DNA from: Ruania alkalisoli
GTDB lineage: Bacteria > Actinomycetota > Actinomycetes > Actinomycetales > Beutenbergiaceae
Reading direction: 5' to 3'
DNA length: 64,000 nt
NCBI RefSeq assembly: GCF_014960965.1
Contig: NZ_CP063169.1
Location: forward strand, 2,513,581 to 2,577,580
The translations under genes and the position numbers were made by a program. Of this stretch, positions 8,226 to 22,921 are shown piece after piece; within the stretch, counting starts at the first letter, position 1, and each line of letters begins with the position of its first letter. The notes beneath the pieces are model-generated. The model had not been told where the DNA came from and did no database searches. It saw nothing but the letters and a program-made list of their open reading frames with translations.

Positions 8226-10019
8226 TCACTCCTGGTCGACGGTGACGTCCGCATACTCCGGCGGTAGCTCGGGCCACGCACGCCACTCGGAAATCTCGGC
8301 ACTGGTGTCGGTCCCGATCGTCAGCAGCCGGTAATGGGTCACCAGCCCGGTGTCGGTGTCGAATCGCAGCACCGTCATCACCGCGGGGTTGTTGAGCGGG
8401 CCGATCGTGGGCGTTCCGTGCCCGGCACCGGCCGAGCTGGCGGAGAGGTACTGCACCCCCCAGCCGAGTGGGCGCGGACCGACCTGGCGATGCAGATGGC
8501 CGGCGATCGTTGCTGCCGCACATCCCGCCTCGGCCGCCTGCCGGCCCGCATACGGGCTGTGCACGAGCAGCACATCGATGCCCTGGCCCTGCTCAGCGAG
8601 GTCGCAGGCGGTCCGAGCGAGCCGGTTCCCCATCGCATTGATGGTCTCCTCGCGTTGCGGCCTGGTCGGGGCGCCGAGGGAGGTCAGTGTGGGGTCGGTG
8701 TCGCCGAGGATCCGCAGGCCCGCGACCTCGACGGCGTCACCCTGCAGTGCGATCCAGCCGTTCGCCTCCTCCTGCGCCGTGGTGGTGCGGGAGTCGTGGT
8801 TGCCATCGGCCACCACAACCGGGACTCCTTCCGGTATCCCGGCTGCGAAGGCGTTGACGCAGTACGACTCCACGGACGTGCCACCCATGACGGTGTCGCC
8901 GGCATTGAGCACCACGTCCGATTCCGAGGCGGTCACCGCTGCACCGATGACGTCGGCCATCCCGATGTTGCAGTGCAGGTCGCTCACCAGCAGCGCCGTG
9001 GTCACGGCGGACTCGTCCGCGGGTTCCGGGGTGGCTGCCTCAGACTCGGCGCTCGAGGGCTCACCGTCGCCAGGATCGGCGATCTCGGGCGTGGGCTCTC
9101 CTGGGTCGTCCTGGCCGTCCGTGTCGTCGGAACTGTCAGAACTGTCTGTGCTGTCTGTGCTTTCTGTGCTTTCTGTGCTTTCTGTGCTTTCTGTGCTGTC
9201 TGGGCTCGCCACGTCGACCGGGTCGGGTGCCAGCGGGTGCGGGTCGGCTGCATAGGCCGCGAGCAGATTCTCCCGCGCCGCGGCGTAGAAGCTGGTGTTG
9301 TCATCGATCGCCTCGACGACGTACGTACCGTAGTGGTCCACCAGCGTGGCGAGCCGACCGGTGATGCGCGCGTCTTCGAGCGGCGTCCCGGCGAGGATCG
9401 TCGAGGTGCGGCCCACTCCGCCGGAGGTACGCGTCAGCTCGATCACTGGTACGGACACCAGGACCGCGGTGAGAGTCACGCTCAGCGCCGGCACTCCCGT
9501 CCGTGACCAGGCGCTGCGCACGGCCTCGCGCAGCACTCCGTGCGCAGCGAGCCGGCCCAGCGCCACCGTCACCAGCAGCACGCTCAAGAACAACACCGAG
9601 CGTCCGACGGCGTCCGTCACCAGGCCTTGGACGGCGTCATCGATCGCGGCCTCAGGATTGGCGAGGAACTGGGTATAGCTCTCGAGGTCGGCTGTCAGTC
9701 CCGCCACCGGGCTCGTACCCGGGGCTGTCAGTTCAGCAGGGATCTCCTTGACGATGACGTCCGCACCGAGGTTCAGCGGCAGGGGTGAGTCGATGATCAG
9801 CGCGCCGAGCGGCCCCATGTCCACCCGGACCTCGCCGTTGAGGCGCACCGAGTACTGCGCGGCGTGAGGGCCGAGTGAACCGGTGTAGGTCGCGGTGAGT
9901 ACTCCGAGGAGCACGCTGACCAAGCCAGCGACGAGGACGGCTATCGAGGCGCGGATGGTGCGGCGGGTCATAGGACGCAGCCGGTGCCACCATCCGGTGC
10001 GCTGGTCGGGCTCGGTCAC
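8226..10019 (-). CDS. Membrane-anchored metallophosphoesterase
   Basis: Calcineurin-like phosphoesterase of 597 residues. A hydrophobic helix at about residues 22-46 and further hydrophobic segments near 140-210 indicate membrane anchoring. A low-complexity linker of Ser, Thr, Glu and Asp (about 280-330, EST repeats) leads to the catalytic domain with SDLHCN, NAGDTVMGG, DGNHDS and AGHLHRQ, the metal-binding motifs of the family. The substrate is unknown. Its ATG overlaps the stop of the upstream lipoprotein gene and the VKOR gene follows by 5 bp, so all three probably form an envelope-directed operon. Confidence 0.88.
   Translation of the reverse strand: MTEPDQRTGWWHRLRPMTRRTIRASIAVLVAGLVSVLLGVLTATYTGSLGPHAAQYSVRLNGEVRVDMGPLGALIIDSPLPLNLGADVIVKEIPAELTAPGTSPVAGLTADLESYTQFLANPEAAIDDAVQGLVTDAVGRSVLFLSVLLVTVALGRLAAHGVLREAVRSAWSRTGVPALSVTLTAVLVSVPVIELTRTSGGVGRTSTILAGTPLEDARITGRLATLVDHYGTYVVEAIDDNTSFYAAARENLLAAYAADPHPLAPDPVDVASPDSTESTESTESTESTDSTDSSDSSDDTDGQDDPGEPTPEIADPGDGEPSSAESEAATPEPADESAVTTALLVSDLHCNIGMADVIGAAVTASESDVVLNAGDTVMGGTSVESYCVNAFAAGIPEGVPVVVADGNHDSRTTTAQEEANGWIALQGDAVEVAGLRILGDTDPTLTSLGAPTRPQREETINAMGNRLARTACDLAEQGQGIDVLLVHSPYAGRQAAEAGCAAATIAGHLHRQVGPRPLGWGVQYLSASSAGAGHGTPTIGPLNNPAVMTVLRFDTDTGLVTHYRLLTIGTDTSAEISEWRAWPELPPEYADVTVDQE
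9144..9200. repeat. In-frame 9-bp tandem repeats (EST codons)
   Basis: A run of about six 9-bp units (TGTGCTTTC on the plus strand, with two variant units) encodes the repeated Glu-Ser-Thr of the phosphoesterase linker. Because units are 9 bp, slippage would change linker length without breaking the frame. Confidence 0.8.
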
Positions 10020-11641
10020 TGGTAGCTCACGAACTCCGGCATGGGTTCCACGGCCATCACCTCGGCCGAGTTCATGCGCGGGTCGTCTTCGTCATAGAAC
10101 ACCTTCCACCCCCAGTGGATCCCAGCAGGTGCACCGGCGCGCACACTCTGCCAGGTGTCCTGCTTCTGCTCCGGCGTGCCGAATCCGTCAGCATGGATGA
10201 CGATCTCCACCTCCGGCCGGGACGTGACCAGCTCGGACCGGTCGGTCACCATGCTGGTGCGGAACTGATGGATCATCACGATCTTCTGCGGCAGGCGCTG
10301 CTCACGGACGTAGTCGGCCACGTAGCTGATCACGTCGTTCACCTCGGCCGCGGAGACCGACCCGATACGCTCCCCCGGCAGTTCATCATCGGTGATGCGC
10401 CACTCCGGATCGAGTGCGATACCCACGTGCGGGTAGGCAAGCAGCTCCGCATACTGCTGGACCTGCTCCAGGAAGGTCGCCCGTCCCGGCTGGAAGTCCA
10501 GCACCACGTACTGACCGGACTCGGCGGCTGCCTCGACCAGCGGCACGAATCCCTCAGCGGGCCACTCCTGCGAGTAGTTCCCGTCGCCTCCCGCGGCCAC
10601 AGTCGCCACGGTGACGATGATCTCCAACGTCGGGACCACGACGTCCTCGGTGTGCGCCTGGTAGGCGGTGGCGAGCTGCGCCGCCCGGTCAATCGTCTCC
10701 GAGGTTCCCTGCTCCCCGAGAGCGCCGAGCACCTCGGTGTGCGGACTCCCGTACAGCCCCACGTACCGGGCGCTCTCGAAGGCGAGTTGGCCGCCACCGG
10801 GCAGCTGTGTGCCCGAGAGCGCCGTCTCGGCCTGCCACTGGAACGTCTCCGGATCCCCGAAGCTGGTACCCAGTCCGACGATGGCCTCTGTCTCACCGAC
10901 GTCGGCCAGCTCCGCCGCCGAGGCCCGCGGATCACCTTCGAGGACGGTGACCGTGGCACCGGCCGCTCGTGCGGTGCCTACGGCCGCTAGCTGTTCGGGT
11001 GCGCCGTCGGCAAGCAGTTGAATCCCCTCGACGGGCTCACCCGTGAGCAGCGCGGGCATGTGCCCCGACGGATCGGCAACCCCGGCGGGACCTGACACCA
11101 CGGCACCTCGCGCCAGATCGGCGAGTGAGTGGACATCAGCGCCGCTCCCCGCGGGAGCGTCGGTGACATCGATACCGAGCAGGTCGCCGGCCGCGCTCGT
11201 CTCGGCAGGAACTGGTTGGACGTTCATGCTCGTCAGGTCGAGGCCGGTGAGGTCGACCTCGCCGACGGGCAGCAGTGTCGTGGCGGACAGCCGGAGCAGT
11301 TCCTCGCCGACACCGGGGTTGTCTTCGCCCGTGAGGAGGACCGGCGCTCCCAGCGCGACCGCAAGCGAGGCGGCCCGCGCGATCGCGGGCTCGTCACCGG
11401 CCGGGGCGAGCAGCACTGCCTGTGCGACGGTGAACAGCTCTCGACTGGCGGTCAGGGCCAGCGGAACGGCTTCATCGCCGGTGACCAGTGTGCTCGCGCT
11501 CCCGGGCAGCTGGGCAACGGCAGCGGGCTGTGGATCCGGCGGAGGTGAACTGGGACCGGAGTCGATCTCCATCGAGCCGGTACACCCGGCCAGAGCGGCA
11601 GCGAGAGCCGTGCTCGCGACCACGGCGGCAAGTCTGCGCAA
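10016..11641 (-). CDS. Lipoprotein of unknown function
   Basis: Predicted lipoprotein of 541 residues starting at TTG (GGGGGGAA just upstream). The signal RRLAAVVASTALAAALAGC ends in a lipobox with Cys19. After a proline-rich spacer the N-terminal half alternates hydrophobic strands and glycines in a way that recalls cell-wall-binding repeat 2 proteins (AGDEPAIARAASLAVALGAPVLL, ATTLLPVGEVDL). The C-terminal half (about 330-541) contains HVGIALDPEWRI, KIVMIHQFRTSM and PAGIHWGWKVFYDED, a TIM-barrel-like pattern seen in uncharacterised actinobacterial proteins. I cannot assign an activity. It overlaps the metallophosphoesterase gene by ATGA, suggesting a joint role at the cell surface. Confidence 0.7.
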   Translation of the reverse strand: MRRLAAVVASTALAAALAGCTGSMEIDSGPSSPPPDPQPAAVAQLPGSASTLVTGDEAVPLALTASRELFTVAQAVLLAPAGDEPAIARAASLAVALGAPVLLTGEDNPGVGEELLRLSATTLLPVGEVDLTGLDLTSMNVQPVPAETSAAGDLLGIDVTDAPAGSGADVHSLADLARGAVVSGPAGVADPSGHMPALLTGEPVEGIQLLADGAPEQLAAVGTARAAGATVTVLEGDPRASAAELADVGETEAIVGLGTSFGDPETFQWQAETALSGTQLPGGGQLAFESARYVGLYGSPHTEVLGALGEQGTSETIDRAAQLATAYQAHTEDVVVPTLEIIVTVATVAAGGDGNYSQEWPAEGFVPLVEAAAESGQYVVLDFQPGRATFLEQVQQYAELLAYPHVGIALDPEWRITDDELPGERIGSVSAAEVNDVISYVADYVREQRLPQKIVMIHQFRTSMVTDRSELVTSRPEVEIVIHADGFGTPEQKQDTWQSVRAGAPAGIHWGWKVFYDEDDPRMNSAEVMAVEPMPEFVSYQ

Positions 11642-11836: not shown

Positions 11837-11861
11837 GATGACACGGGCCCGGGCTGTCATC
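11837..11861 (-). terminator. Hairpin at the end of the GH116 gene
   Basis: GATGACA and TGTCATC form a 7-bp stem around an 11-base GC-rich loop, overlapping the GH116 stop codon. No U-rich tail follows. The remaining 215 bp between GH116 and the lipoprotein gene (11642-11856) shows no other gene or clear signal. Confidence 0.4.
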
Positions 11862-14460
11862 CAGACGTCCCGGCGCGCAGACGGCGTTCCTCTCCTGCCT
11901 GCAGCCGCACCGGTCCGTAGGTGCTCACGCCGTCCGGGGTGGTCAGCTCGAGCCCGGCCACCTCCACCGAGCCGTGACGGCACTCCAGGTACGGGCCGTC
12001 GTCGGTGTTCAGCAGGCTGCCCCATCCGGTGTCGAGCAGCACCGGCCAGGCGCCTCCTGGTGGTGGGAGGCTGATTCGCAGGACTCCCGTGGCAGCGTTC
12101 CACCGCTGCCCGGTACGGGCCTCGAGCACGCTCCAGCCTGACAGGGCGCGCACATAGTGGTCGCCGCACTCCACCTGGTTGTACGGGTTGCGCCGGCGTC
12201 CGTCGTAGCGGGACCACAGGCCGGTCAGGATCTGCTCGGCCTCGTCCTGCATCCCCTCCATCAGGCAGTGCGCTGCCACCTGTTGCTCCACTCCGGTCCA
12301 CACCTCGTCGGCGTACCGGGTGGGGACCTCCGGGCGCCCGCCGTGGGGCCAGGTGCACACCACCAGACCGGTTTCGTCACCGTCGGCGAACACGCGATAC
12401 GGGTGAGTGAATCCGGTGAAGTCGGTGCGCAGGTTGTGGCGGACCACGGCCTGCAGCGCTGTGCGCACGTGCTCCGCCGGCAGCAGGTAGCCCAGCTCGA
12501 GCGTGTGCGCCCACCACTGTCCGAAGAGCTGATCCGCCAGACATCCCTCGCCCCACTGGAACTCGCGTGGGTCACCATCCTCGAGCACCTGCCGGTAGTA
12601 CTCGCCGGTGAACAGCATCTCGTCGTAGGCGGCCGAAGAATGCTCGAAAGTACTCCGCCAGTGCGCGGCCGCGTCCGTGTCACGCTCCAATCGCGCCAGT
12701 TCCTCCGCGGCGCGCAACGCCGCGAGCCACAGGCTCCCCATGAAGGGGTTCAGTCCTGCCAGATCGATGTCATGGGTCGAGGGCTGGATGCCGTGCAGCA
12801 CGCCGGTGCCCTCAGGGTCCCACCGGCCCGCGACATAGCGCATCACCTGTTCCACGTTGGGGCGGTACCGGGCCAGCCACGCCGCACCCGCACCCGTGCG
12901 AACCTCCCGGTAGGTCTTCAGCACCGTGCCCAGCATCCCGTCCAAGGCCGGCTCGTCCGGGCCGCCGATCGAGCGATCCCAGAGCTGACCGAGCGAAGTC
13001 GGCAGGATCAACCGGTGCGGGATCGACCCGTCCGGTGCCTGCAGCACGTCGAAATCGGTCTCGCGCATGTCCCGCTCCAGCTCCGGGAACAGCTTCGCCA
13101 GGCCTTGTTCGTAGGTGAACACGTGCGTGCAGTTCAGCGGGCAGGAGCCACCCACATCCCCGGACCACATCGTGGTCGACTCCCCCTGCACGCCCTCGAA
13201 GCCATAGAGCCGCCCGTCGGCGGTGCGGAAGAAGCTCGGGCTACGAATCACTGCCGACAGCGCGGCAAGGTGCTCGATCGCCTGCTCACCGAGCGAGCTC
13301 TCAGTGAGCGTCCGGATCCAGGTGGCCGTGTCCCGGTGCAGCGGTTCCCACTGCTCGGCGACCGTGTCGAGCACGTCCAGGGCGTCGGCGAACTGATTCG
13401 TGTAGTGGTTGCCGATGAAGTACCGGCTGGCGCCCCACTCCGGCCGGATGCCGCCGAACTGGGTGAAGTTGACGTAGCGGTTCGGCAGGTGCCAGGTGAG
13501 CGCGAGCCGCAGCTGCGTGCTCTGCCCGGGCTCGAGATGGAAAGGAACGGCGAGTCCCCCGTTCCAGGTGCTTCCCTCCGGGCTCAGGCCCGCGGCCGAC
13601 CAGGTGCCCGTGGGCTGCGGGTCCGCCATCGAGGCCGGCATGTGCGCCCAGTCACGGGGACCGAACGGCTGCCTGCTGCCGAGGAAGGCGAGGAACTGGT
13701 CCGCACTGGTGAAGGCAGGCAGGGCCGTGGTGCCGGGGGTGTCCGCAGCAAGCACCACCTGCCCGGCGCCGTGGTGGTCAGGGGCCAGGGTGTGGTTGTC
13801 CATCACCAGGGCCGTCCAGTCCCGACGGCGGTCGGTACGGTTGGTATTGCCGCCGTACCCGGGCGCTCGGACGCCGTCGGGAGGGAGGGCGCCATCGGCG
13901 CCCAGCAGATTCTGCATGGCTGCCCCGAACCACCCGTGGCTGGACACCTCGGAGCGGTTCGTGATCCGCACGGTGAACAGCGCAGCCGGCAGCGAGCTAC
14001 GGGCGGTGTCCAACGGCACCAGCGGGGTCATCGCCTCCAGGCTCACCGTCACCGGCAGGGCGTCATCGTGATAGTCGATCCTCCCCGCCGGGTAGATGCC
14101 ACGGAAGGTGGTGCCCTGCACGCCGCGGTGCCGGGTGAGCAGCTCACGCTGCCAGGTGGGCACGTGATCGTCGTTGACCATCGGGGTGCGGGTCTGCTCC
14201 GGCGGGGCCGGAGGTGCCTGCAGCACCCGGATCTCGTTCGACGGCGGTTCCCACTGGGCCACCCGGAGCGCGAACATCGCCCCGGGGAGCTCGCCCCGGT
14301 GGTTGCCGAGGTGGTGCAGCTGCCACTGCTTCAGCGCCCCGTCGGCACCGAGCGCCAGATTCCCTGTGCCGATGCCACCGAGCGGGAGGGCCACGTGGCG
14401 GCCGGCAGCGTGGGCGATCGATCGGGCGGACTCAGGAACGAGCGGGATGTCGGTACCCAT
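11857..14460 (-). CDS. GH116 family glycoside hydrolase
   Basis: Large enzyme of 867 residues with a GH116 N-terminal beta-sandwich (GLPLGGIGTGNLALGADG-type start at about residues 25-45) and a C-terminal (alpha/alpha)6 domain (former DUF608) with RLYGFEGVQGESTTMWSGDVGG, LNCTHVFTYEQGLAKLFPELER and NPFMGSLWLAALRAAEELA, the catalytic-domain signatures. GH116 includes beta-glucosidases, beta-xylosidases and the exo-beta-D-arabinofuranosidase of D-arabinan degraders. No signal peptide is seen, so it probably works in the cytoplasm on imported oligosaccharides. The ATG follows the permease stop directly; it is the last gene of the LacI-controlled operon. D-arabinan as substrate is inferred from GH172 and GH183-like neighbours. 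Confidence 0.88.
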   Translation of the reverse strand: MGTDIPLVPESARSIAHAAGRHVALPLGGIGTGNLALGADGALKQWQLHHLGNHRGELPGAMFALRVAQWEPPSNEIRVLQAPPAPPEQTRTPMVNDDHVPTWQRELLTRHRGVQGTTFRGIYPAGRIDYHDDALPVTVSLEAMTPLVPLDTARSSLPAALFTVRITNRSEVSSHGWFGAAMQNLLGADGALPPDGVRAPGYGGNTNRTDRRRDWTALVMDNHTLAPDHHGAGQVVLAADTPGTTALPAFTSADQFLAFLGSRQPFGPRDWAHMPASMADPQPTGTWSAAGLSPEGSTWNGGLAVPFHLEPGQSTQLRLALTWHLPNRYVNFTQFGGIRPEWGASRYFIGNHYTNQFADALDVLDTVAEQWEPLHRDTATWIRTLTESSLGEQAIEHLAALSAVIRSPSFFRTADGRLYGFEGVQGESTTMWSGDVGGSCPLNCTHVFTYEQGLAKLFPELERDMRETDFDVLQAPDGSIPHRLILPTSLGQLWDRSIGGPDEPALDGMLGTVLKTYREVRTGAGAAWLARYRPNVEQVMRYVAGRWDPEGTGVLHGIQPSTHDIDLAGLNPFMGSLWLAALRAAEELARLERDTDAAAHWRSTFEHSSAAYDEMLFTGEYYRQVLEDGDPREFQWGEGCLADQLFGQWWAHTLELGYLLPAEHVRTALQAVVRHNLRTDFTGFTHPYRVFADGDETGLVVCTWPHGGRPEVPTRYADEVWTGVEQQVAAHCLMEGMQDEAEQILTGLWSRYDGRRRNPYNQVECGDHYVRALSGWSVLEARTGQRWNAATGVLRISLPPPGGAWPVLLDTGWGSLLNTDDGPYLECRHGSVEVAGLELTTPDGVSTYGPVRLQAGEERRLRAGTSG

Positions 14461-15384
14461 CTACTTGATCCCCGAGATCCGGATCCCGGAGATGATGTAA
14501 CGCTGGAAGATCAGGAACAGCACGATCACCGGGGTGGCGGCCAAGGTGGATCCTGCGAGCAGCAACCCGTACTCGACCCGCCGTTCGGAGCGGAAGGTGG
14601 CCAGGTACTGCTGGATCTGGGTGAGTGGCGAGTCCGGTTCGGTGATCGTCAGGATCGGCCACACGTAGGCATTCCAGAACACCAGGAACGAGGTGATGCC
14701 CACCACCACGAACACGGGTTTGGACATCGGCAGGAAGATGTGGGTGAAGATCTTCCACCGCCCGGCGCCGTCGATCAGTGCTGCCTCCTCCAACGAGGTG
14801 GGGATGCCGAGATAGAACTGGCGGATGAAGAACACGTGCACCGCCGAGGCCGCTCCCGGTACGAGCAGCACCCAGAACGTGTTCAGCATCCCCATCCGGG
14901 TCACCACGATGTAGGAGGTGATCAGGATCGCCATCTGCGGGATGAACATGGTCATCAGCACGACCGGCCACAGCACGTTCTTGAAGGCGAAGTCCAGGCG
15001 CGCGAAGGCGTACGCGGCCATCGAGTTCACCGCGAGGGTGAGCGTGGAGAACGCGACTGCCCCGGCGAAGGAGACCGCGAGCGCCCGGGTGAAACCGGGA
15101 TCGGCGAGGATCTGCGCGTAGTTCTCCGGCATCCACACGTCCGGGAAGAACTGGAACGGTGAGGTGACCACCTCGTTGCGGGCCTTGAACCCGGAGATCG
15201 CCATCCAGGCCAGCGGGAACAGTGCCGTCAGGATGACGGCAGCCGAGAGCAGGTACCGCAGCACGAAAGAGGCAGGCCCTCCGGAACGGGACGAGGGGCG
15301 GTACCAGCTGCGCTGGGCGAGTGGTGCACCTGTGGCAGGGCCGCCGTCGGGAGCTGGTGCTGTCTGGGTGGGGAGCGCGGCCAT
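14461..15384 (-). CDS. Carbohydrate ABC transporter permease (MalG type)
   Basis: Inner-membrane permease of 307 residues with six predicted helices and the EAA loop (PTSLEEAALIDGAGRWKIFTHIFLP, about residues 192-216) that docks on the ATPase. It matches the MalG/CUT1 group in length and order. The start ATG overlaps the stop of the partner permease by one base. With the second permease and the binding protein it forms a CUT1 sugar importer; no dedicated ATPase gene is present, which is normal in actinobacteria, where one MsiK-type ATPase serves several importers. Confidence 0.94.
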   Translation of the reverse strand: MAALPTQTAPAPDGGPATGAPLAQRSWYRPSSRSGGPASFVLRYLLSAAVILTALFPLAWMAISGFKARNEVVTSPFQFFPDVWMPENYAQILADPGFTRALAVSFAGAVAFSTLTLAVNSMAAYAFARLDFAFKNVLWPVVLMTMFIPQMAILITSYIVVTRMGMLNTFWVLLVPGAASAVHVFFIRQFYLGIPTSLEEAALIDGAGRWKIFTHIFLPMSKPVFVVVGITSFLVFWNAYVWPILTITEPDSPLTQIQQYLATFRSERRVEYGLLLAGSTLAATPVIVLFLIFQRYIISGIRISGIK

Positions 15385-16322
15385 CAGCCGTCCACCGCCT
15401 TCTCGGAGTTGATGAGCTTGAAGATCACCAGGCTGATCCCGCCGAGCACGAGGAAGAGCAGCAGTGCGGCGGCGATCGGGTAGCCCAGGTACAGGTCGTT
15501 GGTGAACTTCTGGAAGATGAGCAGGTTCGGCAGCAGGGTGGACTGGGTGGGTCCGCCCTGGGTCATCACCAGGGGCAGCTCATACTGCTGGATGGTGGCC
15601 ACGAAGGTGGTGACCAGCACGTACAGCAGGATGTTCTTCATCAGCGGGATGGTGATGAAGAAGGTGCGTTGGAACCAGTTGGCGCCCTCCATCTCGGCGG
15701 CCTCGTAGTAACTCTCGGGGATGTCGAGGAGACCGGCGAGCATGATCAGCGATGCCAGTCCCAGGCCGATCCAGATCGCGGGGATCGAGATCGCCAGCAG
15801 GGCGGTCTGGGCACTGCCGATCCACGGGATGTCCGAGCCGCCGAGGGAGCTGATGACGAAATTCACCAGCCCTTGCCGGTACTCGAAGATGAGGACGAAT
15901 ACGATGGAGGCGATCACGAACGAGATGACCGCGGGGATGTAGATGCTCACCTTGAGCACGGTCGCCATTCGGGCGCTCATCGTCTTCACCAGGTTGGCGA
16001 AGATGAACGCGATGAGCATGATCGCCGGCACGGTGATGGCCGAGAACAGCAGGCCGCGGCCGATGGAGTCCCAGAACACCGGGTCGGCGAGCACGATGCG
16101 GAAGTTGCGCAGCCCTACGAAGATCGAGTCCTCGTAGAAGCTCCATTGGTAGAAGCTGACCACCCAGGCGTAGACCAACGGCCAGATCACGAAGATGCTG
16201 AGCAGGATCACCGCCGGGGCGAGCATCGCGAACGCGATCTTGTTGTCCTTGTGCTTGGGCCGTCGCCGGTTCGCCGTGGTCGGCGCCCGTCGCGGGACGG
16301 GTGTCTCGGTCGTCAGTGTCAT
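15384..16322 (-). CDS. Sugar ABC transporter permease (MalF type)
   Basis: Permease of 312 residues, the MalF-type partner. Six hydrophobic segments begin with FAMLAPAVILLSIFVIWPLVY; the EAA loop is DIPESYYEAAEMEGANWFQRTFFITIP. The start is placed at ATG 16322, preceded by GAGGAGG seven bases upstream; an open frame continuing to 16457 runs into the binding-protein gene and is not protein-like. It lies between the solute-binding protein and the second permease and completes the membrane pore of the importer for the sugar released by the surface glycosidase. Confidence 0.94.
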   Translation of the reverse strand: MTLTTETPVPRRAPTTANRRRPKHKDNKIAFAMLAPAVILLSIFVIWPLVYAWVVSFYQWSFYEDSIFVGLRNFRIVLADPVFWDSIGRGLLFSAITVPAIMLIAFIFANLVKTMSARMATVLKVSIYIPAVISFVIASIVFVLIFEYRQGLVNFVISSLGGSDIPWIGSAQTALLAISIPAIWIGLGLASLIMLAGLLDIPESYYEAAEMEGANWFQRTFFITIPLMKNILLYVLVTTFVATIQQYELPLVMTQGGPTQSTLLPNLLIFQKFTNDLYLGYPIAAALLLFLVLGGISLVIFKLINSEKAVDG

Positions 16323-16380
16323 GCCACCGCCTCCTCGCGATGGTGGTCGGGTGCCGCCGCGACGGCACCCGACCAGGGAG

Positions 16381-17724
16381 TCAGGATCCGGTGCCCGCCA
16401 GCTCGGAGTTGGCGATCTCGGTGGCGATCTTGTCGTTCGCTGTGGCCAGCGCCTCATCGACCGGGGTGCCCTGCATCGCCGCCTCGATTGCTTCGCCCAT
16501 CGCCAGGGAGACGTTCCACGGGTAGGCAGGCTCCTGCTGAGCGAACGGAACGATGTCCGCTTGGATCGTGGCGTTCCATGGGTTCACCGAGTCCACGTCG
16601 GGGAGCTCGTTGATCGCGTCCGCCACTGACTGGCGCGGCGAGACCTTCGAGAACACCGTGGCCTCGAAGAACGGCACCACGTTCGCGGTGTCACCGCCGA
16701 GGGACCACTCGATGAAGTCGGCTGCCTCCTCGGACACCTCGCTGTTGCCGTCGACCACCCAGGTCCAGCCGCCGAGGGTGGCGGTGGTCTCCCCCGGTTC
16801 GCCGCTGAAGCTGGGCATCGCTGCCACCTCGGTGACCTCGGCAATTTCGGGGTAGTCGGCCAGTAGCTGACTGGCCGCCCACGAACCGTTCGCCATCATC
16901 GCGAACTCGCCCTCGCCGTAGGGTGTGGCGTCGGCGTACCCGATGCCATCACCTGGAGGCAGCGCACCGGAGTCGAACAGATCCTGGTACGCCTGCAACA
17001 GCGGGGCGAAGTCCTCGTTCGCAGCCGGCTCGGACCAGTCTTCGCTGATCGGCAGGTGGCCGGCGACGTTCCACTGGTAACCCCAGGTGGACCAGGACAT
17101 GTCCACCGAGGTCTGTGCGAGCCGCATGCCGAACACCTGGTCGTCGGTGAGCTGCTCGGCGTAGTCGATGAGCTCCTCCCACGAGGTCGGGGGGCCGTCC
17201 AGACCGGCTTCGTCGAAGAGGTCGGTGCGGTAGTACAGCACCGCCGAGGGCTCCACCAGCATCGGATAGGCGTAGCGTTCGCCGTCGGAGGAGACCGATT
17301 CCAGCACGTTCTCCTGCACGTCACCCCAGGCGTCCTCACTGATCAGGTCCGTCAGCGGGACGATCTGGCTGGTGCGTGCGGCGTCGCGGATGTCGCCGTA
17401 GTTCATCGTGCGCACGTCAGGTGCGTTCCCGGCTGCCTGCGCGGCGGTCATCCGCTGCTCCCAGGCGTCGCCGGGAACCACAGTGAGGGCAACGTGCACT
17501 TCGTCCTGGGAGGCGTTGTAGGCATCGACGACGCCCTCGTACCACTCGTTCTCCTCGTCGGTGAACTGGGTCTGCCAGAACGTCACTTCGGTGGCGCCCT
17601 CGGGCACGTCCTCGCCACCTCCGGCATTGTCGGGGCCGTCGGGCGTTCCTGAGCATGCAGCCAGTGCGAGACCGGCCGCGACCACGGCGGCCAGGCCGCC
17701 GGCCATTCTTCGGGTGGTTCGCAT
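16381..17724 (-). CDS. Extracellular sugar-binding lipoprotein of ABC importer
   Basis: Family 1 solute-binding protein of 447 residues. The lipoprotein signal is RRMAGGLAAVVAAGLALAAC with Cys at about residue 23, followed by a Gly/Asp-rich tether and VTFWQTQFTDEENEWYEGVVDAYN, typical of the first strand and helix of CUT1 binding proteins. ATG 17724 has AAGGAGG six bases upstream; the longer open frame is discarded. It would capture oligosaccharides at the cell surface and deliver them to the two permeases downstream. The ligand is probably an arabinofuranosyl oligosaccharide, judging only from the neighbouring hydrolases. Confidence 0.93.
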   Translation of the reverse strand: MRTTRRMAGGLAAVVAAGLALAACSGTPDGPDNAGGGEDVPEGATEVTFWQTQFTDEENEWYEGVVDAYNASQDEVHVALTVVPGDAWEQRMTAAQAAGNAPDVRTMNYGDIRDAARTSQIVPLTDLISEDAWGDVQENVLESVSSDGERYAYPMLVEPSAVLYYRTDLFDEAGLDGPPTSWEELIDYAEQLTDDQVFGMRLAQTSVDMSWSTWGYQWNVAGHLPISEDWSEPAANEDFAPLLQAYQDLFDSGALPPGDGIGYADATPYGEGEFAMMANGSWAASQLLADYPEIAEVTEVAAMPSFSGEPGETTATLGGWTWVVDGNSEVSEEAADFIEWSLGGDTANVVPFFEATVFSKVSPRQSVADAINELPDVDSVNPWNATIQADIVPFAQQEPAYPWNVSLAMGEAIEAAMQGTPVDEALATANDKIATEIANSELAGTGS

Positions 17725-17743
17725 CTCATCCTCCTTGATGGGT

Positions 17744-17759
17744 GACTCGTCGATGAGTC
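17744..17759 (-). promoter_or_regulatory. Inverted repeat ahead of the binding-protein gene
   Basis: GACTC-gtcgat-GAGTC lies in the short gap between the DUF4185 lipoprotein gene and the binding-protein gene. Such stems often stabilise the binding-protein part of an operon mRNA; it could also be an operator. No test is possible from sequence. Confidence 0.3.
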
Positions 17760-17765
17760 GGGTGG

Positions 17766-18935
17766 TTATTGAGTGACCAGATCGGCGCTGTACCAGAAGA
17801 CGTTGTAGGGGCCCCACAGGGACAGCGAGAAGTAGAGCGTTCCGCCGTCGTCGCTGACGTACCGCGGATTGAGGTAAGGGCTGTACAGACCGGGATTCTC
17901 AGCCTGGGTACTGATCGTGTGCGGCTGGCTCCACGGGCCCCACGGGGTGAGTCCCTCGAAGAGCACCGCATCCTCGTTCTGCAGCGTGCTCATCAGCCAT
18001 CGGTCCAGCTCAGGGTGATACATCACGGAGATCTCGCCGATGGGTGCCTCGACGATCGTCTCCGCCTCGCTCATCTCCGGCGACCAGCGAGGTGCGCCGT
18101 CGCCGTCAGTACCCGCGAAGTACTCGTAGGCGCTGAGGTCCTCGACGGCATCGGTCGTGGCGGGAACTTTCATCAGCTGCACCCCACCGAACCTCCCGGC
18201 GGGGATCGACCAGAGGTAGAGATAGTCTTCGCCGTTCTCGGCCACGTGGACTGCGGAGACCTGCACGAAGCCGGAGTCCCCCGGCCACTGCGGATCGTCC
18301 AGGGTCTCCCACGTGGCGCCGTCGTCGGTGGATCTGGCGAGCCCAGCGTGGTTGGCGTCCCACTGCCCGGCCTCGCCCCAGTAGTTCACCGACATGTACT
18401 GCAGGTAGAGAACATCCTCGACGACGAACCCGTGGGTGGGGATCTTCGTCACCTCTCCCTCACCGTTGTTGGCATCGTGCTCGCCGGGGATCACCTCGAG
18501 CGCCAGTCCGACGTCGTCCCTCGCCCAGTCCTCGAAGGTGATCCCGTCGGTGGGGTCGTCGTCGGTGGTCCAGGCCAGCGCGTTCGAGCGCCAGTTGCCA
18601 CCGCCACCACCGAAGGCGTCCGGTTCGCGGGTGCCGAAGGTGTCGCCGAAGACGACGTAGGTGCGTTCGCCGTCGTTGATCATGGACCCGAGGTCGGTGC
18701 CTGCCACGGCGACCGCCTCGGTGTCGTTGATCGCCGAGTCGGGCCCGGTGAGCTGGGCGACCTGGGTGAGGTTCTCGATACCCGTGATCAGGAACTCCCC
18801 ATCGGCCGGGGTCCCCGACGGCACAGCGGGTGTGCCGGGGGCATCCTCGCCCGGGCCCGGCGTACAGGCGGTCACCATCAGCGCGACCACAGTGAGAACG
18901 ACGGCACGGAATCTCGCATGACGGTCCCCTCTCAT
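17766..18935 (-). CDS. DUF4185 (GH183-type) lipoprotein, putative endo-D-arabinanase
   Basis: Predicted surface lipoprotein of 389 residues: FRAVVLTVVALMVTAC gives a lipobox near residue 24. The mature part has the DUF4185 beta-propeller pattern: TDLGSMINDGERTYVVFGDTFG, then WRSNALAWTTDDD, then FLYLW-type strands and TPWGPWSQPH. The aspartates in TDLG and FGDTF lie about 17 residues apart and are the likely catalytic pair of this family (from memory). DUF4185 proteins of family GH183 are endo-acting D-arabinofuranases cutting the arabinan of arabinogalactan and lipoarabinomannan. ATG 18935 overlaps the GH172 stop (ATGA). An activity other than on D-arabinan cannot be excluded. Confidence 0.8.
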   Translation of the reverse strand: MRGDRHARFRAVVLTVVALMVTACTPGPGEDAPGTPAVPSGTPADGEFLITGIENLTQVAQLTGPDSAINDTEAVAVAGTDLGSMINDGERTYVVFGDTFGTREPDAFGGGGGNWRSNALAWTTDDDPTDGITFEDWARDDVGLALEVIPGEHDANNGEGEVTKIPTHGFVVEDVLYLQYMSVNYWGEAGQWDANHAGLARSTDDGATWETLDDPQWPGDSGFVQVSAVHVAENGEDYLYLWSIPAGRFGGVQLMKVPATTDAVEDLSAYEYFAGTDGDGAPRWSPEMSEAETIVEAPIGEISVMYHPELDRWLMSTLQNEDAVLFEGLTPWGPWSQPHTISTQAENPGLYSPYLNPRYVSDDGGTLYFSLSLWGPYNVFWYSADLVTQ

Positions 18936-20020
18936 CCCAGCCTCGGCAACCGTTCGGCGACCGGTGGAAGCTGCAGATGGGCGGCCGGCTGGGCCTGGTA
19001 CCAATAGGCGGTCGAGGAGAGGTCGTCACTGCGCCGGTTGTCGTGACCGTGCTCGATGGTGACGCGGATCGACTCCCGGAACGTGACCGGGTCCTCGATG
19101 TGGAAGCGGTACAACGAGATCTGCCCGGACCAGTTCTCCCCACCGGGCAACGTGATCCCGTGATAGAGCGAACTGTAGGTCTGGGACGGGCACCATGCGG
19201 TATTGAAGTAGTCCTCGGTGCCGGTACCGTGCAGGCTCGGTGGCCACGACTCGCCGTCGACGAAGATCATGTCGTCACCCTCGCCGTACCAGTTCCACTC
19301 GCTCGTGTGGCGTAGGTTCGTCACGTTCAGCACGCAGCCGACGAAGTGGCCTCGTCCGGTCGTCTCCAGGATCGTGTAGTTGCCAGCGCCGCCGATGTTC
19401 TCGCCACCGAACAGGTGCTCAGCGTTGCTGCGGCCTTCTTCGGAGGTGCCGTCGGTGGGGTTCTCCCGGTTCCAGCTCGCGTGAAACCGGCCGAGCCCTT
19501 CCTCGAGCTCGTCGAAGGCGTCGTAGTCGATGTAGTAGTAGAAGAAGACGTCCTGCTCGCACTCGCTGGTGATCTCCAGCCGGGCTCCGTCGGCGAACGG
19601 CATCTGGAAGAACGAGTTCAGGCCCTTGCCATCCTCCGGACTCATCTGCAGCGGCAAGGACGCGAAGTTCACGGTGCGCGCATGGCCGACGCCGAAGAAG
19701 TCGCCGAGCGGCACCAGCACGCTCGGTGTATCGGCGCCGTCCCAGAAGATCCGCAGGACGAGCTTGCGCAGATGGTCCCGGTCCTTGGAGTCGGGTCCAT
19801 CTCCCGCTGCTGGCGCCACGGTGATCCAGATGTGGTTGATCGACCCGGCACCGGTGATCTCCGCCAGGGTACGGGTCTCGCCGGAACGGACCGTGAGGCG
19901 ATCGTCGTTGCCGCCGGTCTGGTCCCAGCTGGACACGCGCAACCGGCGATGCTCACGCAGCCGGGGCAGGTCCCGCAGGCTCGATCCATAGCTGCCGTAG
20001 CGGACGGGATTGGTACTCAT
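18932..20020 (-). CDS. DUF2961 / GH172 glycoside hydrolase
   Basis: Protein of 362 residues with two linked jelly-roll halves typical of GH172. The region WYGEGDDMIFVDGE followed by HGTGTEDYFNTAW contains the family's catalytic glutamates, here E247 (nucleophile position) and E269 (acid/base position). GH172 includes alpha-D-fructofuranosidase/difructose-dianhydride enzymes and exo-alpha-D-arabinofuranosidases. The start ATG 20020 has GGAGAGG upstream; a longer open frame to 20221 crosses the operator and is rejected. No signal peptide, so it acts inside the cell. It is first in the operon, just downstream of a perfect LacI operator, and overlaps the DUF4185 gene. Confidence 0.9.
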   Translation of the reverse strand: MSTNPVRYGSYGSSLRDLPRLREHRRLRVSSWDQTGGNDDRLTVRSGETRTLAEITGAGSINHIWITVAPAAGDGPDSKDRDHLRKLVLRIFWDGADTPSVLVPLGDFFGVGHARTVNFASLPLQMSPEDGKGLNSFFQMPFADGARLEITSECEQDVFFYYYIDYDAFDELEEGLGRFHASWNRENPTDGTSEEGRSNAEHLFGGENIGGAGNYTILETTGRGHFVGCVLNVTNLRHTSEWNWYGEGDDMIFVDGESWPPSLHGTGTEDYFNTAWCPSQTYSSLYHGITLPGGENWSGQISLYRFHIEDPVTFRESIRVTIEHGHDNRRSDDLSSTAYWYQAQPAAHLQLPPVAERLPRLG

Positions 20021-20075
20021 GCGATCCTCTCCGTCGAGTCTCGTCCGTGGAACGACCGAGTCGGCCCTCCGTGCG

Positions 20076-20089
20076 AGTAAACGTTTACT
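20076..20089. promoter_or_regulatory. LacI-family operator
   Basis: AGTAAACGTTTACT is a perfect 14-bp palindrome with the central CG step favoured by LacI-type regulators. It lies 56 bp before the GH172 start and just after the end of the lacI-type gene, in the right place to repress the whole glycosidase-transporter operon. Confidence 0.8.
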
Positions 20090-20144
20090 GAGATCGAGGA
20101 TCGCACTCCCGTCCCGGCCTGTCAATGGATCGCGACGATCGAGC

Positions 20145-21161
20145 TCAGAGACGCTGGGTCGTGGTACCGCGGACGAGGAGTTCAGGTTCCAAGAGCAAGT
20201 GGACCGGCGCGACATCGTCATGAATCGCTCGCACGTTCAGCCGTTCGGCAGCCCGGGTCCCCATCTCGTCGACGGGCTGGGCGACGAGTGTGACAGCCGG
20301 ATGCACCAGCTGAGTCCAGGTGTCATCATCCACACCCACCAGGGAGATGTCTTCCGGAAGGCGGAATCCGGAGCGCTGGATTCCGCGATAGGCACCCGCG
20401 GTCAGCGGTCCATTCATGGCCACGACAGCATCGGGCGGCTTCGGCCCGCTCACGGCCGCCAGCACCGCGTCCTCGGCGTCGGCCATCCGAAGATCGGTGC
20501 GGACCATCCGTTCGTGCTCGAACACCACCCCTGCCTCGGCCAGCGCATGCCGCACACCGTCCAGCCGGTCCTCGGTGGTGCTCACACCTGAAGGTCCGGC
20601 AAGGCAGAGGATATCCCTGTGGCCGAGGGCGAGCAGGTGCTCCACCGCCAGCCGGCCGACCCGCTCATTGTCCAACAGGATCGAGTCGCCAGCGAAGTCG
20701 TGAACCCGGCGATCGACGACGACTGTGGGAATTCCTGCTGCCAGCAAGGGGGCCAGGTCGGACTGCTCTTCGGAGGTCACAGAGACCACCACGCCCGACA
20801 TCCGTTGAGCAATCGCAGCGTCGAGATATCCTCTCTCGCGCTCAAGTTGCTCGTCGGTGTTGCAGAGCATGACCGAGTGACCGGACCTGACCGCCACATG
20901 CTCGACGGCCGTAACCAACGAGGTGAAGAACGGGTTCTTCACATCCGAGACGATCGCAGCCCACACGTCGGCGCGCTGGCGCCGCAGCGCACGGCCGTTC
21001 GAGTTCGGCACGTAGCGGGCTGCCCGGGCGGCCACGCGCACACGTTCGGCGAGCACGGGGTCCACGGTGCTCGATCCGTTGAGTACCCGGGAGACGGTCG
21101 CGATGGATACACCGGCGGCAGCTGCGACATCGGTGATCCTGACGGGGCGATCGCTGCTCAT
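20145..21161 (-). CDS. LacI family transcriptional regulator
   Basis: Regulator of 338 residues with an N-terminal helix-turn-helix (VRITDVAAAAGVSIATVSRVLNG, about residues 6-28) and hinge, then a periplasmic-binding-protein-like effector domain (ADVWAAIVSDVKNPFFTSLV; LVGVDDDTWTQLVHP). ATG 21161 overlaps the stop of the upstream beta-propeller gene; a GTG one codon earlier is also possible. The perfect operator at 20076-20089 lies between this gene and the GH172 operon, so it most likely represses that operon until a sugar released from the substrate binds. Confidence 0.93.
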   Translation of the reverse strand: MSSDRPVRITDVAAAAGVSIATVSRVLNGSSTVDPVLAERVRVAARAARYVPNSNGRALRRQRADVWAAIVSDVKNPFFTSLVTAVEHVAVRSGHSVMLCNTDEQLERERGYLDAAIAQRMSGVVVSVTSEEQSDLAPLLAAGIPTVVVDRRVHDFAGDSILLDNERVGRLAVEHLLALGHRDILCLAGPSGVSTTEDRLDGVRHALAEAGVVFEHERMVRTDLRMADAEDAVLAAVSGPKPPDAVVAMNGPLTAGAYRGIQRSGFRLPEDISLVGVDDDTWTQLVHPAVTLVAQPVDEMGTRAAERLNVRAIHDDVAPVHLLLEPELLVRGTTTQRL

Positions 21162-22921
21162 CACCGGATGCTCCCACAGGTGCTCGCGGACGGAGCTTCG
21201 TCGGGGGCGAGCACCGCCAGCTCGGCCACGGCCGTGTAGCCGCCCCAGCCGCCCGCCGGACCGGCGATCCGGACACCCGTGGTCTCCCGGGGCGAGAAGG
21301 TGAACTCATACGTGCGTCGACCGGTGGCAGCCTCCGAGCACGGATAGGGCGGGGACACCACAGCATCGGCCACCCGCTCCCATCCCCTGGCGGTACGCAC
21401 CTCCACCACCGGGGTAGACGCGAACCACCCGGAGCCATGATCCATCGGGCCACTGGTGAGCACGACCCGGTCGCACCGCACGGTGATCGGCCAGGTGTAG
21501 CCCCACGCGTCGCTCTCGCGGACAAGACCGTTCCACGAGTCCTCAGCTCGGTCGACGCGCCCGTCACGGAGCACGTCCAGCCTCCCGTCACGGCAGCTGG
21601 ACACCACCGGGTAGGCGTCCGGCCGATGCGCGAGGTTCTCCCCCGACGTGCCTACGGCGGGCACGAGCGGGTCGGGCATCGGGTCCAGACGCAGCGGCCG
21701 CAGCGAGAAGTGATAGGCCGACCCTCCATAGGTGGAAGCGCCGACGAACCAGTTCGACTGCACCCACGCCATCCGCCCATCCTCGCTGAGGAACTTGCTT
21801 GGGATAGTGGTCGCGTAGCCGCCGTGCCGCGGCTGGGACCACAGGGGCCCTCGCCACGGGAACGGTCCGAAGTCGTGACTGAGCGCATGCTTCCACGGAC
21901 CCCAAGGGGTGGGCGACTCGTAGAGCTCGAACGTGAACTCGGTCCAGGAGGAATACAGGAACCGCCGTAGGCCCGGGTTGTAGACAATGGAGCCCTGCGC
22001 GATGCGAGTACCGCGAATCGGTGCCGGGGCTCCGGGCAATGGCCGGGCCGTTCCCACCCGGCGGGTGTCGGTGAGCACGGGGACGGCATCCTCGAGGGCT
22101 GCCGTCCACGCCGGACCCGACGTGCCGTGGCCGGAACAGAACTGCCACGAGGTGCGGTCCTGGATCGACCCGATCGGCACTCGCGCGAGATACAGGTCCA
22201 CCGGGTCCGGCACGGCGGCCGAATAGGACGTGCGCCAGTTGTGGTCGATGCCGTAGGCATAGACAAACTTCGACGGGTCCTCGTCGGTGTGCGGAACGAG
22301 CGTTCGGAGCACTGTCACGTGCCGTGCGGACTGTCCGAAGTCGAGGAACATCACTGTGGTGAATCGTCCAGTGAACATGGGCGCCGGGCCAGACGGCCCG
22401 AGATGCCAGGTCCGGCCGTAGTCATCGGAACGGACTATCCCGGCCGCTGGTGCTTCGTTGAACGTGTCTGGCCCAGTCCCTGCGCGCAGATCCTGGACGG
22501 CGAGATACAACTCGTCGCGCCCGTCTGCGTTGCCATCGACTGCCACCATTCCCGTCGGCTTGCTGTTGTAGCGGGAGGGATCGGTCCACACCGGCGAGAC
22601 GTCACGTTCAGCGGCCAGCCGTCTTATCACCACACCGGTGGCGGGGTCACCGTCGATCCTGCACACCACGATATCGCCGAAACTGGCCGTGCCACTGCCG
22701 TCATCGACGCCCACCCCATCCCCGCACGCGGAGTACAGCGCGCCGTCATCTGCCCAGGCAGTGGGCCACAGGTCCCCGTCCGAGTCCGATGTGACCGTGG
22801 CCGCCTCGGCAATACTCGCGACGGCAAAGGCGTGAGATTCCTCAGGAGCGAGCCTCAGCGTGCCGGGTTCCTCACCGCCGGTATCCACTCCCGGAATCGC
22901 CGGCACCGCGGCGTCAGCCAT
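21161..22921 (-). CDS. Beta-propeller protein with C-terminal discoidin-like domain, DUF4185-related
   Basis: Protein of 586 residues of uncertain function. The first ~410 residues look like a five-bladed beta-propeller: LWPTAWADDGALYSACGDG, a later YNPGLRRFLYSSW strand and ESPTPWGPWKHA, which resembles TPWGPW in the neighbouring DUF4185 lipoprotein. The last ~150 residues (GRLDVLRDG to TAVAELAVLAP) have the spacing of a discoidin/CBM32-like beta-sandwich. No signal peptide is visible from ATG 22921. It may be a second GH183-type or a GH43-like enzyme for arabinan, acting inside the cell unless the start is wrong. It is coupled to the lacI-type gene downstream. Confidence 0.6.
   Translation of the reverse strand: MADAAVPAIPGVDTGGEEPGTLRLAPEESHAFAVASIAEAATVTSDSDGDLWPTAWADDGALYSACGDGVGVDDGSGTASFGDIVVCRIDGDPATGVVIRRLAAERDVSPVWTDPSRYNSKPTGMVAVDGNADGRDELYLAVQDLRAGTGPDTFNEAPAAGIVRSDDYGRTWHLGPSGPAPMFTGRFTTVMFLDFGQSARHVTVLRTLVPHTDEDPSKFVYAYGIDHNWRTSYSAAVPDPVDLYLARVPIGSIQDRTSWQFCSGHGTSGPAWTAALEDAVPVLTDTRRVGTARPLPGAPAPIRGTRIAQGSIVYNPGLRRFLYSSWTEFTFELYESPTPWGPWKHALSHDFGPFPWRGPLWSQPRHGGYATTIPSKFLSEDGRMAWVQSNWFVGASTYGGSAYHFSLRPLRLDPMPDPLVPAVGTSGENLAHRPDAYPVVSSCRDGRLDVLRDGRVDRAEDSWNGLVRESDAWGYTWPITVRCDRVVLTSGPMDHGSGWFASTPVVEVRTARGWERVADAVVSPPYPCSEAATGRRTYEFTFSPRETTGVRIAGPAGGWGGYTAVAELAVLAPDEAPSASTCGSIR

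Follow-up and report, generated by a model that had tools for sequence, protein, structure and literature searches.

There is a demand for D-arabinan-cutting enzymes as tools to act on the cell wall of mycobacteria, and genes encoding such enzymes were identified in two papers published in 2023. The closest described systems are the locus of Microbacterium arabinogalactanolyticum (MIAR_33170-33320; PMC10509167), to which the reference enzymes EndoMA1 (glycoside hydrolase family GH183), ExoMA1 (GH172) and ExoMA2 (GH116) belong, and PUL42 of Dysgonomonas gadei (PMC10115798). In the latter paper, the GH172 enzyme DgGH172c is a proven alpha-D-arabinofuranosidase that is active on p-nitrophenyl-alpha-D-arabinofuranoside, arabinogalactan and lipoarabinomannan. 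This paper describes a related operon in the genome of Ruania (Ruaniaceae, Actinomycetota; 4.45 Mb on a single contig), contained in a window of 64,000 nucleotides that constitutes the whole stretch of DNA analyzed. Sequence comparisons give good support to its designation as a D-arabinan feeding operon. It belongs to the type reported in 2023, but its components come from branches of the enzyme families that have received less study. With a probability of roughly 0.83, the operon would enable Ruania to eat mycobacterial-type D-arabinan, composed of alpha-linked D-arabinofuranose (D-Araf) with beta-D-Araf ends, that is made by other bacteria. A literature search on Ruania and arabinan retrieved only work on pectin-degrading compost microbes.

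The locus comprises eight genes, all minus-strand open reading frames (ORFs) located between positions 11857 and 22921 of the window, and the ORF list and Pfam searches confirmed the coordinates and gene calls of an initial annotation of this DNA, with the expected domains in each of the eight products. In the order of transcription these are a gene for a DUF4185-like protein, here designated D4185b (22921-21161), and a LacI-family regulator gene (21164-20145), followed after a 124-base gap by the genes for GH172, a GH183 lipoprotein, a binding lipoprotein, two permeases and GH116. The GH172 and GH183 genes overlap via ATGA, the two permease genes overlap as well, and the GH116 gene follows directly after that of the second permease, and on this basis the last six genes (GH172 to GH116) are read as one operon. 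Pfam E-values were 3.4e-85 for DUF2961 (GH172), 3.6e-83 for DUF4185 in the GH183 protein, and 8.6e-45 and 1.2e-39 for the N-terminal and catalytic domains of GH116, respectively. Signal peptides and lipoboxes were judged by eye, using the lipobox rule for GH183 and the binding protein; both of these display a lipobox and neither GH172 nor GH116 has a signal sequence, in line with the layout that was initially proposed.

The GH183 protein (17766-18935, 389 aa, lipobox VTAC) is a predicted endo-D-arabinanase. In a phmmer search against solved structures (E ≤0.1) it matched EndoMA1 alone (wild type and D51N; 1.4e-53), and its residues D81, D98, R248 and E301 correspond to D33, D51, R198 and E243 of that enzyme. 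Among the EndoMA1 residues described in PMC10509167 (D33, D51, W138, P141, R198, E243, L292, and Y293), all are kept except P141, which is replaced by Ala, and the combination of D33, D51 and E243 is retained in 20/20 GH183 rows, EndoMA1 included. Kin of the window protein with 55-63% identity occur in loci of the Microbacteriaceae type and adjoin the binding protein in L138-L140 (comparison loci and genomes are numbered with L and G, respectively). In L139 the genes are ordered as GH116, an ExoMA1 counterpart (91%), a D4185b protein, an EndoMA1 counterpart (75%), importer, and window-type GH183, an order that parallels the MIAR numbering save for EndoMA2, which was not recognized in L139. From this gene order we infer that MIAR_33320 may be the counterpart of the window GH183, and MIAR_33220 that of the DUF4185-like protein of the window; neither MIAR protein was expressed in soluble form (PMC10509167). 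A below-cut-off DUF4185 match at 3.05 Mb in the same genome was discarded, as it had no tblastn match (1e-3) to either DUF4185 protein of the window.

For the GH172 gene (18932-20020, encoding 362 aa that by eye include no signal peptide) the start is best set at 20020, past the LacI stop, which places the catalytic pair exactly at E247 and E269, as initially annotated. The protein is 44% identical to BACUNI_00161, 43% to DgGH172c, 42% to alphaFFase1 of Bifidobacterium dentium and 33% to ExoMA1. The sugar preference in this family has been attributed to Gly299 in alphaFFase1 (fructofuranoside) versus Asn253 in ExoMA1 (arabinofuranoside) (PMC10509167). The window enzyme has neither, and displays Cys277 at the Gly299 position, a Cys that is shared by DgGH172c, BACUNI_00161 and 24/24 deduplicated rows that had the window protein as their best match. 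In a tree of 84 rows, 27 rows including the window enzyme lie on one side of a branch with 95/93 support and all 27 have the Cys; six Gly rows (100/99) include alphaFFase1, seven rows have Ser (100/96), four Ala rows fall in two places, and 38 Asn rows including ExoMA1 group together with two Asp rows nested among them. The tree placement that the initial annotation had proposed as a check thus put the window GH172 outside the Gly clade of alphaFFase1, and it equally argued against membership of the ExoMA1 clade. Two catalytic Glu residues, the Cys state and the common 27-row clade, to which a long-branch warning applies, make it likely that the window enzyme belongs with DgGH172c. The GH116 set includes 49 rows from arabinan loci, of which 13 had the Cys-type GH172 alone, 27 had the ExoMA1 type alone, eight had both and one had neither, which suggests that one type stands in for the other; loci of Occultella carry both types and the window only the Cys type. 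A second GH172 is encoded at 4.21 Mb in the same genome (L146:9659-11014), which has the Gly of the alphaFFase1 type, falls among the Gly rows, lies in a different LacI/permease neighborhood and is a probable alpha-fructofuranosidase. At 4.235 Mb, a further but weak match to GH172 proved to span just 25 residues of the ExoMA1-type GH172.

The GH116 protein (11857-14460, 867 aa, by eye without a signal peptide) is a predicted exo-beta-D-arabinofuranosidase, of which ExoMA2 is the best solved relative (2.4e-108 by phmmer), followed by beta-glucosidases at approximately 3e-27. In a multiple alignment with intermediates, ExoMA2 residues E431, H446, R483, and D557 correspond to E422, H446, R483 and D564 of the window protein; these represent the nucleophile, the acid/base, and an Arg/His pair, the latter distinguishing ExoMA2 from the beta-glucosidase TxGH116 (PMC10509167). 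An apparent loss of the nucleophile in the first phmmer alignment, where Ser stood over Glu, was dismissed, since the multiple alignment gives Glu422 followed by an insertion of nine residues that characterizes window-type GH116 proteins. By phmmer the enzyme is nearer to ExoMA2 than to beta-glucosidases, and its deep clade is not that of ExoMA2. Members of the broad clade of the window GH116 (33-34%) were also seen on Lokiarchaeota contigs (L229-L232), where arabinan genes were not seen nearby.

The distribution of these families was surveyed across a sample of 396 genomes of the order, using E-value thresholds of ≤1e-20 for GH116 and GH183 and 1e-6 for the DUF4185-like protein, and at least 73% identity for window-type GH172. 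GH116 was present in 27/396 genomes and GH183 in 25/396, and all 25 of the latter are among the 27, so that the grouping is not due to chance. GH183 and GH116 were found on one contig within ~15 kb in 22/25 genomes and on separate contigs in three, all of them drafts (G084, G091, and G206). Window-type GH172 was detected in 15/396 genomes, 14 of which also have GH116 and GH183 and one of which (G043) has neither, and 17 of the 19 genomes with a DUF4185-like protein contain GH116. The named loci, representing the best 80 of 413 and fetched through GH116, had GH183 or GH172 within the fetched flanks in 37/80 cases. Many of the remaining named loci without GH183 or GH172 are from Kribbella, Jiangella, Chloroflexota and Lokiarchaeota, indicating that GH116 of such breadth also occurs outside arabinan loci.

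The importer genes encode a CUT1-type ATP-binding cassette (ABC) solute-binding lipoprotein (16381-17724; SBP_bac_1/SBP_bac_8 by Pfam, with a PF13416 match at 2e-24 and a lipobox by eye), a MalF/UgpA-like permease (15384-16322; BPD_transp_1; start taken at the MTLTTET methionine) and a MalG/UgpE-like permease (14461-15384; BPD_transp_1). In L138-L140 the binding proteins are 38-44% and the second permeases 60-66% identical to those of the window. Pfam recognized no importer ATPase gene among the genes of the locus. The LacI-family regulator (20145-21164, 339 aa, LacI plus Peripla_BP) is encoded upstream of the operon, and a perfect 14-base palindrome, AGTAAACGTTTACT (20076-20089), located 55 bases ahead of the GH172 start codon, is its predicted operator. 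The palindrome core GTAAACGTTTAC has a single occurrence within the window, and in the two nearest genomes (L130 and L131) the palindrome likewise precedes GH172.

Genes for a D-arabinose isomerase or kinase were not found among those of the window locus. The single FucI-family match in the genome lies at 3.62 Mb (L147:7340-8989), 1.1 Mb from the locus and beside another LacI gene. It shares 66-82% identity with the 19 best matches listed, nearly all of which are situated in D-arabinan loci (of Isoptericola, Agromyces, Microbacterium, Nonomuraea and others; L227 at 56%), which makes it the probable D-arabinose isomerase of the organism. The initial annotation had called the locus complete, a description that finds no support with regard to isomerase, kinase and importer ATPase, none of which is encoded in it. 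In other D-arabinan loci (L123:10262-11877, L133:2151-3931, L204, and others) FucI/FGGY is replaced by a PfkB kinase (ribokinase model 5e-82, below cut-off) and a KpsF-like SIS isomerase (KpsF/GutQ model 5e-58, just below cut-off). This pair occurs in 9/24 genomes of the family, eight times beside a window-type GH172 and once (G295) beside another GH172; it was found in 0/8 genomes of the window's genus and has no close counterpart in the Ruania genome. At 50% identity thresholds, 17 of the 37 named arabinan loci contain FucI/FGGY, 10 contain SIS/PfkB, 10 have neither and none has both. Moreover, the 36 tree rows with a module divide into 24 with FucI/FGGY and 12 with SIS/PfkB, again never both, with five changes on the GH116 tree. 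These counts, which are used alone because a sign test on the two modules was circular (rows with neither had been dropped), suggest two interchangeable D-arabinose routes. The KpsF-like arabinose-5-phosphate isomerase is otherwise known from Kdo (3-deoxy-D-manno-octulosonate) synthesis, and the SIS/PfkB pair likely constitutes a kinase-first route for D-arabinose. In the literature, Cellulomonas sp. 73-145, of which L204 is a SIS/PfkB locus, is named as a bearer of a D-arabinan-type cluster (PMC10509167), and a D-ribulose locus in Citrobacter rodentium has a KpsF-like isomerase beside a D-ribulokinase (PMC12307932).

The first gene of the locus encodes D4185b (21161-22921, 586 aa), which has a C-terminal all-strand domain and, by eye, no signal peptide. 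Its Pfam DUF4185 match is barely above the cut-off (39.8 versus 39.5 bits), and phmmer (E ≤1) found no relative among solved structures. An AlphaFold model (mean predicted local distance difference test score 79.7, predicted template modeling score 0.84, 12 sequences) retrieved EndoMA1 first in Foldseek (8hhv and 8ic1, ranks 1 and 2; 3.6e-19, 16% identity, root-mean-square deviation 13.6) and M. tuberculosis AraH2 (8an0) at rank 17. The EndoMA1 D51 column is occupied by D68 in 12/12 D4185b members in a MAFFT alignment. R198 falls on R230 in a profile alignment and is treated as kept; the supposed loss of this Arg reflected the MAFFT alignment, which placed an invariant Trp229 there. D33 probably corresponds to the invariant D50, on the basis of a DL...W.DDG motif matched by eye at a position where MAFFT has a gap and the profile alignment has not yet begun. 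At the Glu243 position, all 12 members have Gln (Q309 in the window) versus Glu in 20/20 GH183 rows, and E243Q nearly abolished EndoMA1 activity (PMC10509167). D4185b thus has the fold of GH183 and is kin to it, but lacks the Glu that is essential in EndoMA1, and is at most a candidate endo-D-arabinanase. Relatives in L139, L141, L145 and one of two in L142 start with a lipobox (by eye), and those in L139 and L141 are ~400 aa long and have no C-terminal domain. We give about even odds to a joint reading in which D-arabinan loci of Ruaniaceae and other actinomycetes would use two interchangeable D-arabinose routes, either the known isomerase-first route (FucI-family isomerase, FGGY kinase) or a so far unrecognized kinase-first route, in which a ribokinase-like PfkB would form D-arabinose 5-phosphate and a KpsF-like isomerase working in reverse would yield D-ribulose 5-phosphate, and in which D4185b would found a branch of GH183 that has Gln for Glu243 and acts differently on oligosaccharides after their import.

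In the proposed scheme, LacI would repress the operon via the predicted palindrome operator before GH172 until a sugar signal arrives. Homology and the conserved active site suggest that the surface GH183 lipoprotein cuts the polymer to oligosaccharides, which the binding lipoprotein and two permeases would import with an ATPase encoded elsewhere. In the cytoplasm, GH172 would take alpha-D-Araf and GH116 beta-D-Araf off the non-reducing ends, D4185b may act on or bind the imported oligosaccharides, which is the least certain role in the scheme, and D-arabinose would probably enter metabolism via the distant FucI-family isomerase. Homology, conserved residues, the tree and the gene context together give good support to the initially proposed sequence, in which D-arabinan is cut, imported and finished off in the cytoplasm.

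Several findings weigh against this assignment. The window GH116 is only 34% identical to ExoMA2 and lies on the opposite side of a deep branch in a quick tree of 93 rows (100% support in the Shimodaira-Hasegawa-like approximate likelihood ratio test, SH-aLRT, the only support calculated). The four GH116 residues occur in 93/93 rows, a count that is partly the result of selection, as one scan pattern included the His, and in 42 of these rows the locus either lacks GH172 and GH183 at the identity thresholds applied (60, 55 and 30%) or is cut short; the residues consequently agree with a beta-D-arabinofuranosidase without discriminating, and context weighs more. The phmmer scores of GH172 rank BACUNI_00161 first and alphaFFase1 second, both above ExoMA1, and a very long branch leads to the Bacteroidota pair, with a warning of long branches given by the program, so that the Cys clade at 95/93 is not beyond doubt and the tie to DgGH172c is likely but not certain. 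In addition, apart from L130 and L131, the related loci examined (20 of 22, with some genomes fetched twice) lack the AAACGTTT core, and among the FGGY kinases of the genome the best one reaches just 34% identity to the locus type. Finally, the consulted sections of PMC10509167 describe cleavage of alpha-D-Araf by alphaFFase1 itself and report fructofuranosidase activity of DgGH172c neither way, and the Cys state is thus compatible with fructofuranosidase activity.

This last point leads to the main alternative of the initial annotation, in which the locus would serve fructan or difructose anhydride and its GH172 would be an alpha-D-fructofuranosidase, for which the 42% identity to alphaFFase1, second only to BACUNI_00161 in phmmer score, could be taken to speak. 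It is very improbable in view of the Cys that replaces Gly299, the separate supported clade, the distinct Gly-type GH172 elsewhere in the genome, and the presence of both GH183 and GH116 in 14 of the 15 genomes with window-type GH172; neither GH183 nor GH116 is known to have a place in fructan breakdown. The same chemistry could serve another source, i.e., non-mycobacterial alpha-D-Araf glycans of pili, lipopolysaccharide or other wall polymers, and no gene recognized in the locus targets the galactan or mannan portions of the polymers of mycobacteria. This is unlikely, as a GH116 for beta-D-Araf ends best fits the beta-ended arabinan of arabinogalactan and lipoarabinomannan (PMC10509167). Recycling or remodeling of the organism's own cell-wall arabinan, for which the GH183 enzymes of mycobacteria, proposed in PMC10115798 to act on their own walls, would set a precedent, is the least probable of all. 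A search of the single-contig genome that was limited to the EmbABC family (PF04602) gave no match, with Corynebacterium glutamicum positive among 14 control genomes, indicating that the organism probably makes no arabinan of the mycobacterial type itself and uses the arabinan of other organisms as food; a LacI-controlled importer operon would moreover be a layout for feeding. The initial wording that the organism feeds on, or recycles, arabinan consequently stands in its first half, and the second has become unlikely.

Directly downstream of GH116, the window contains a gene for a 541-aa lipoprotein-like protein (10016-11641) without a Pfam match, which is also kept in several relatives (L123-L126 and L131). 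In the nearest relative a sulfatase-family gene (L130:12629-14092) lies directly downstream of GH116, and another gene occupies that place in the window. Three genomes of the same genus (L127-L129) contain a differing arabinan locus, with a ~700-aa GH183 frame downstream of GH116 and an ExoMA1-type GH172; L127 and L128 have a further GH172 in the Ala state, and L127 encodes a large protein that Pfam assigns to GH20 and that has homologues in L164 and in L184.

The locus represents an actinomycete set that is largely outside the characterized examples, with a Cys-clade GH172, a second GH116 clade and a GH183 adjoining the binding protein, and its enzymes would allow the residues that determine specificity to be probed. 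Related loci point to a kinase-first pathway for D-arabinose, and D4185b would show how a GH183 relative acts without the essential Glu. In common with the M. arabinogalactanolyticum locus (PMC10509167) it has GH183, GH172, GH116 and a CUT1 importer with SBP_bac_8, an exported endo-enzyme, exo-enzymes without signal sequence, and a GH183 that adjoins the binding protein. The window enzymes are nevertheless not simple counterparts of the Microbacterium set, since one standard GH183 is present rather than several, GH172 is of the Cys clade and not of the ExoMA1 type, GH116 is of another deep clade, no isomerase or kinase is encoded in the locus, and the 586-aa DUF4185-like protein has no signal peptide. 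With EndoMA1 and AraH2, D4185b shares the fold, the catalytic Asp D51, the Arg and, probably, the second catalytic Asp D33 (matched by eye), but it differs from EndoMA1 in its Gln for Glu243, an identity of 16% and the lack of a signal peptide. B. dentium alphaFFase1 (7v1v) has both catalytic Glu residues in common with the window GH172, but it carries Gly299 versus Cys277 and belongs to a different clade. PUL42 of D. gadei (DgGH172a-c, DgGH4185a/b; PMC10115798) shares the combination of DUF2961 and DUF4185 enzymes, and the Cys state and clade through DgGH172c, whereas it is a system of Bacteroidota, with GH172s that are 43% identical and separated by a very long branch.
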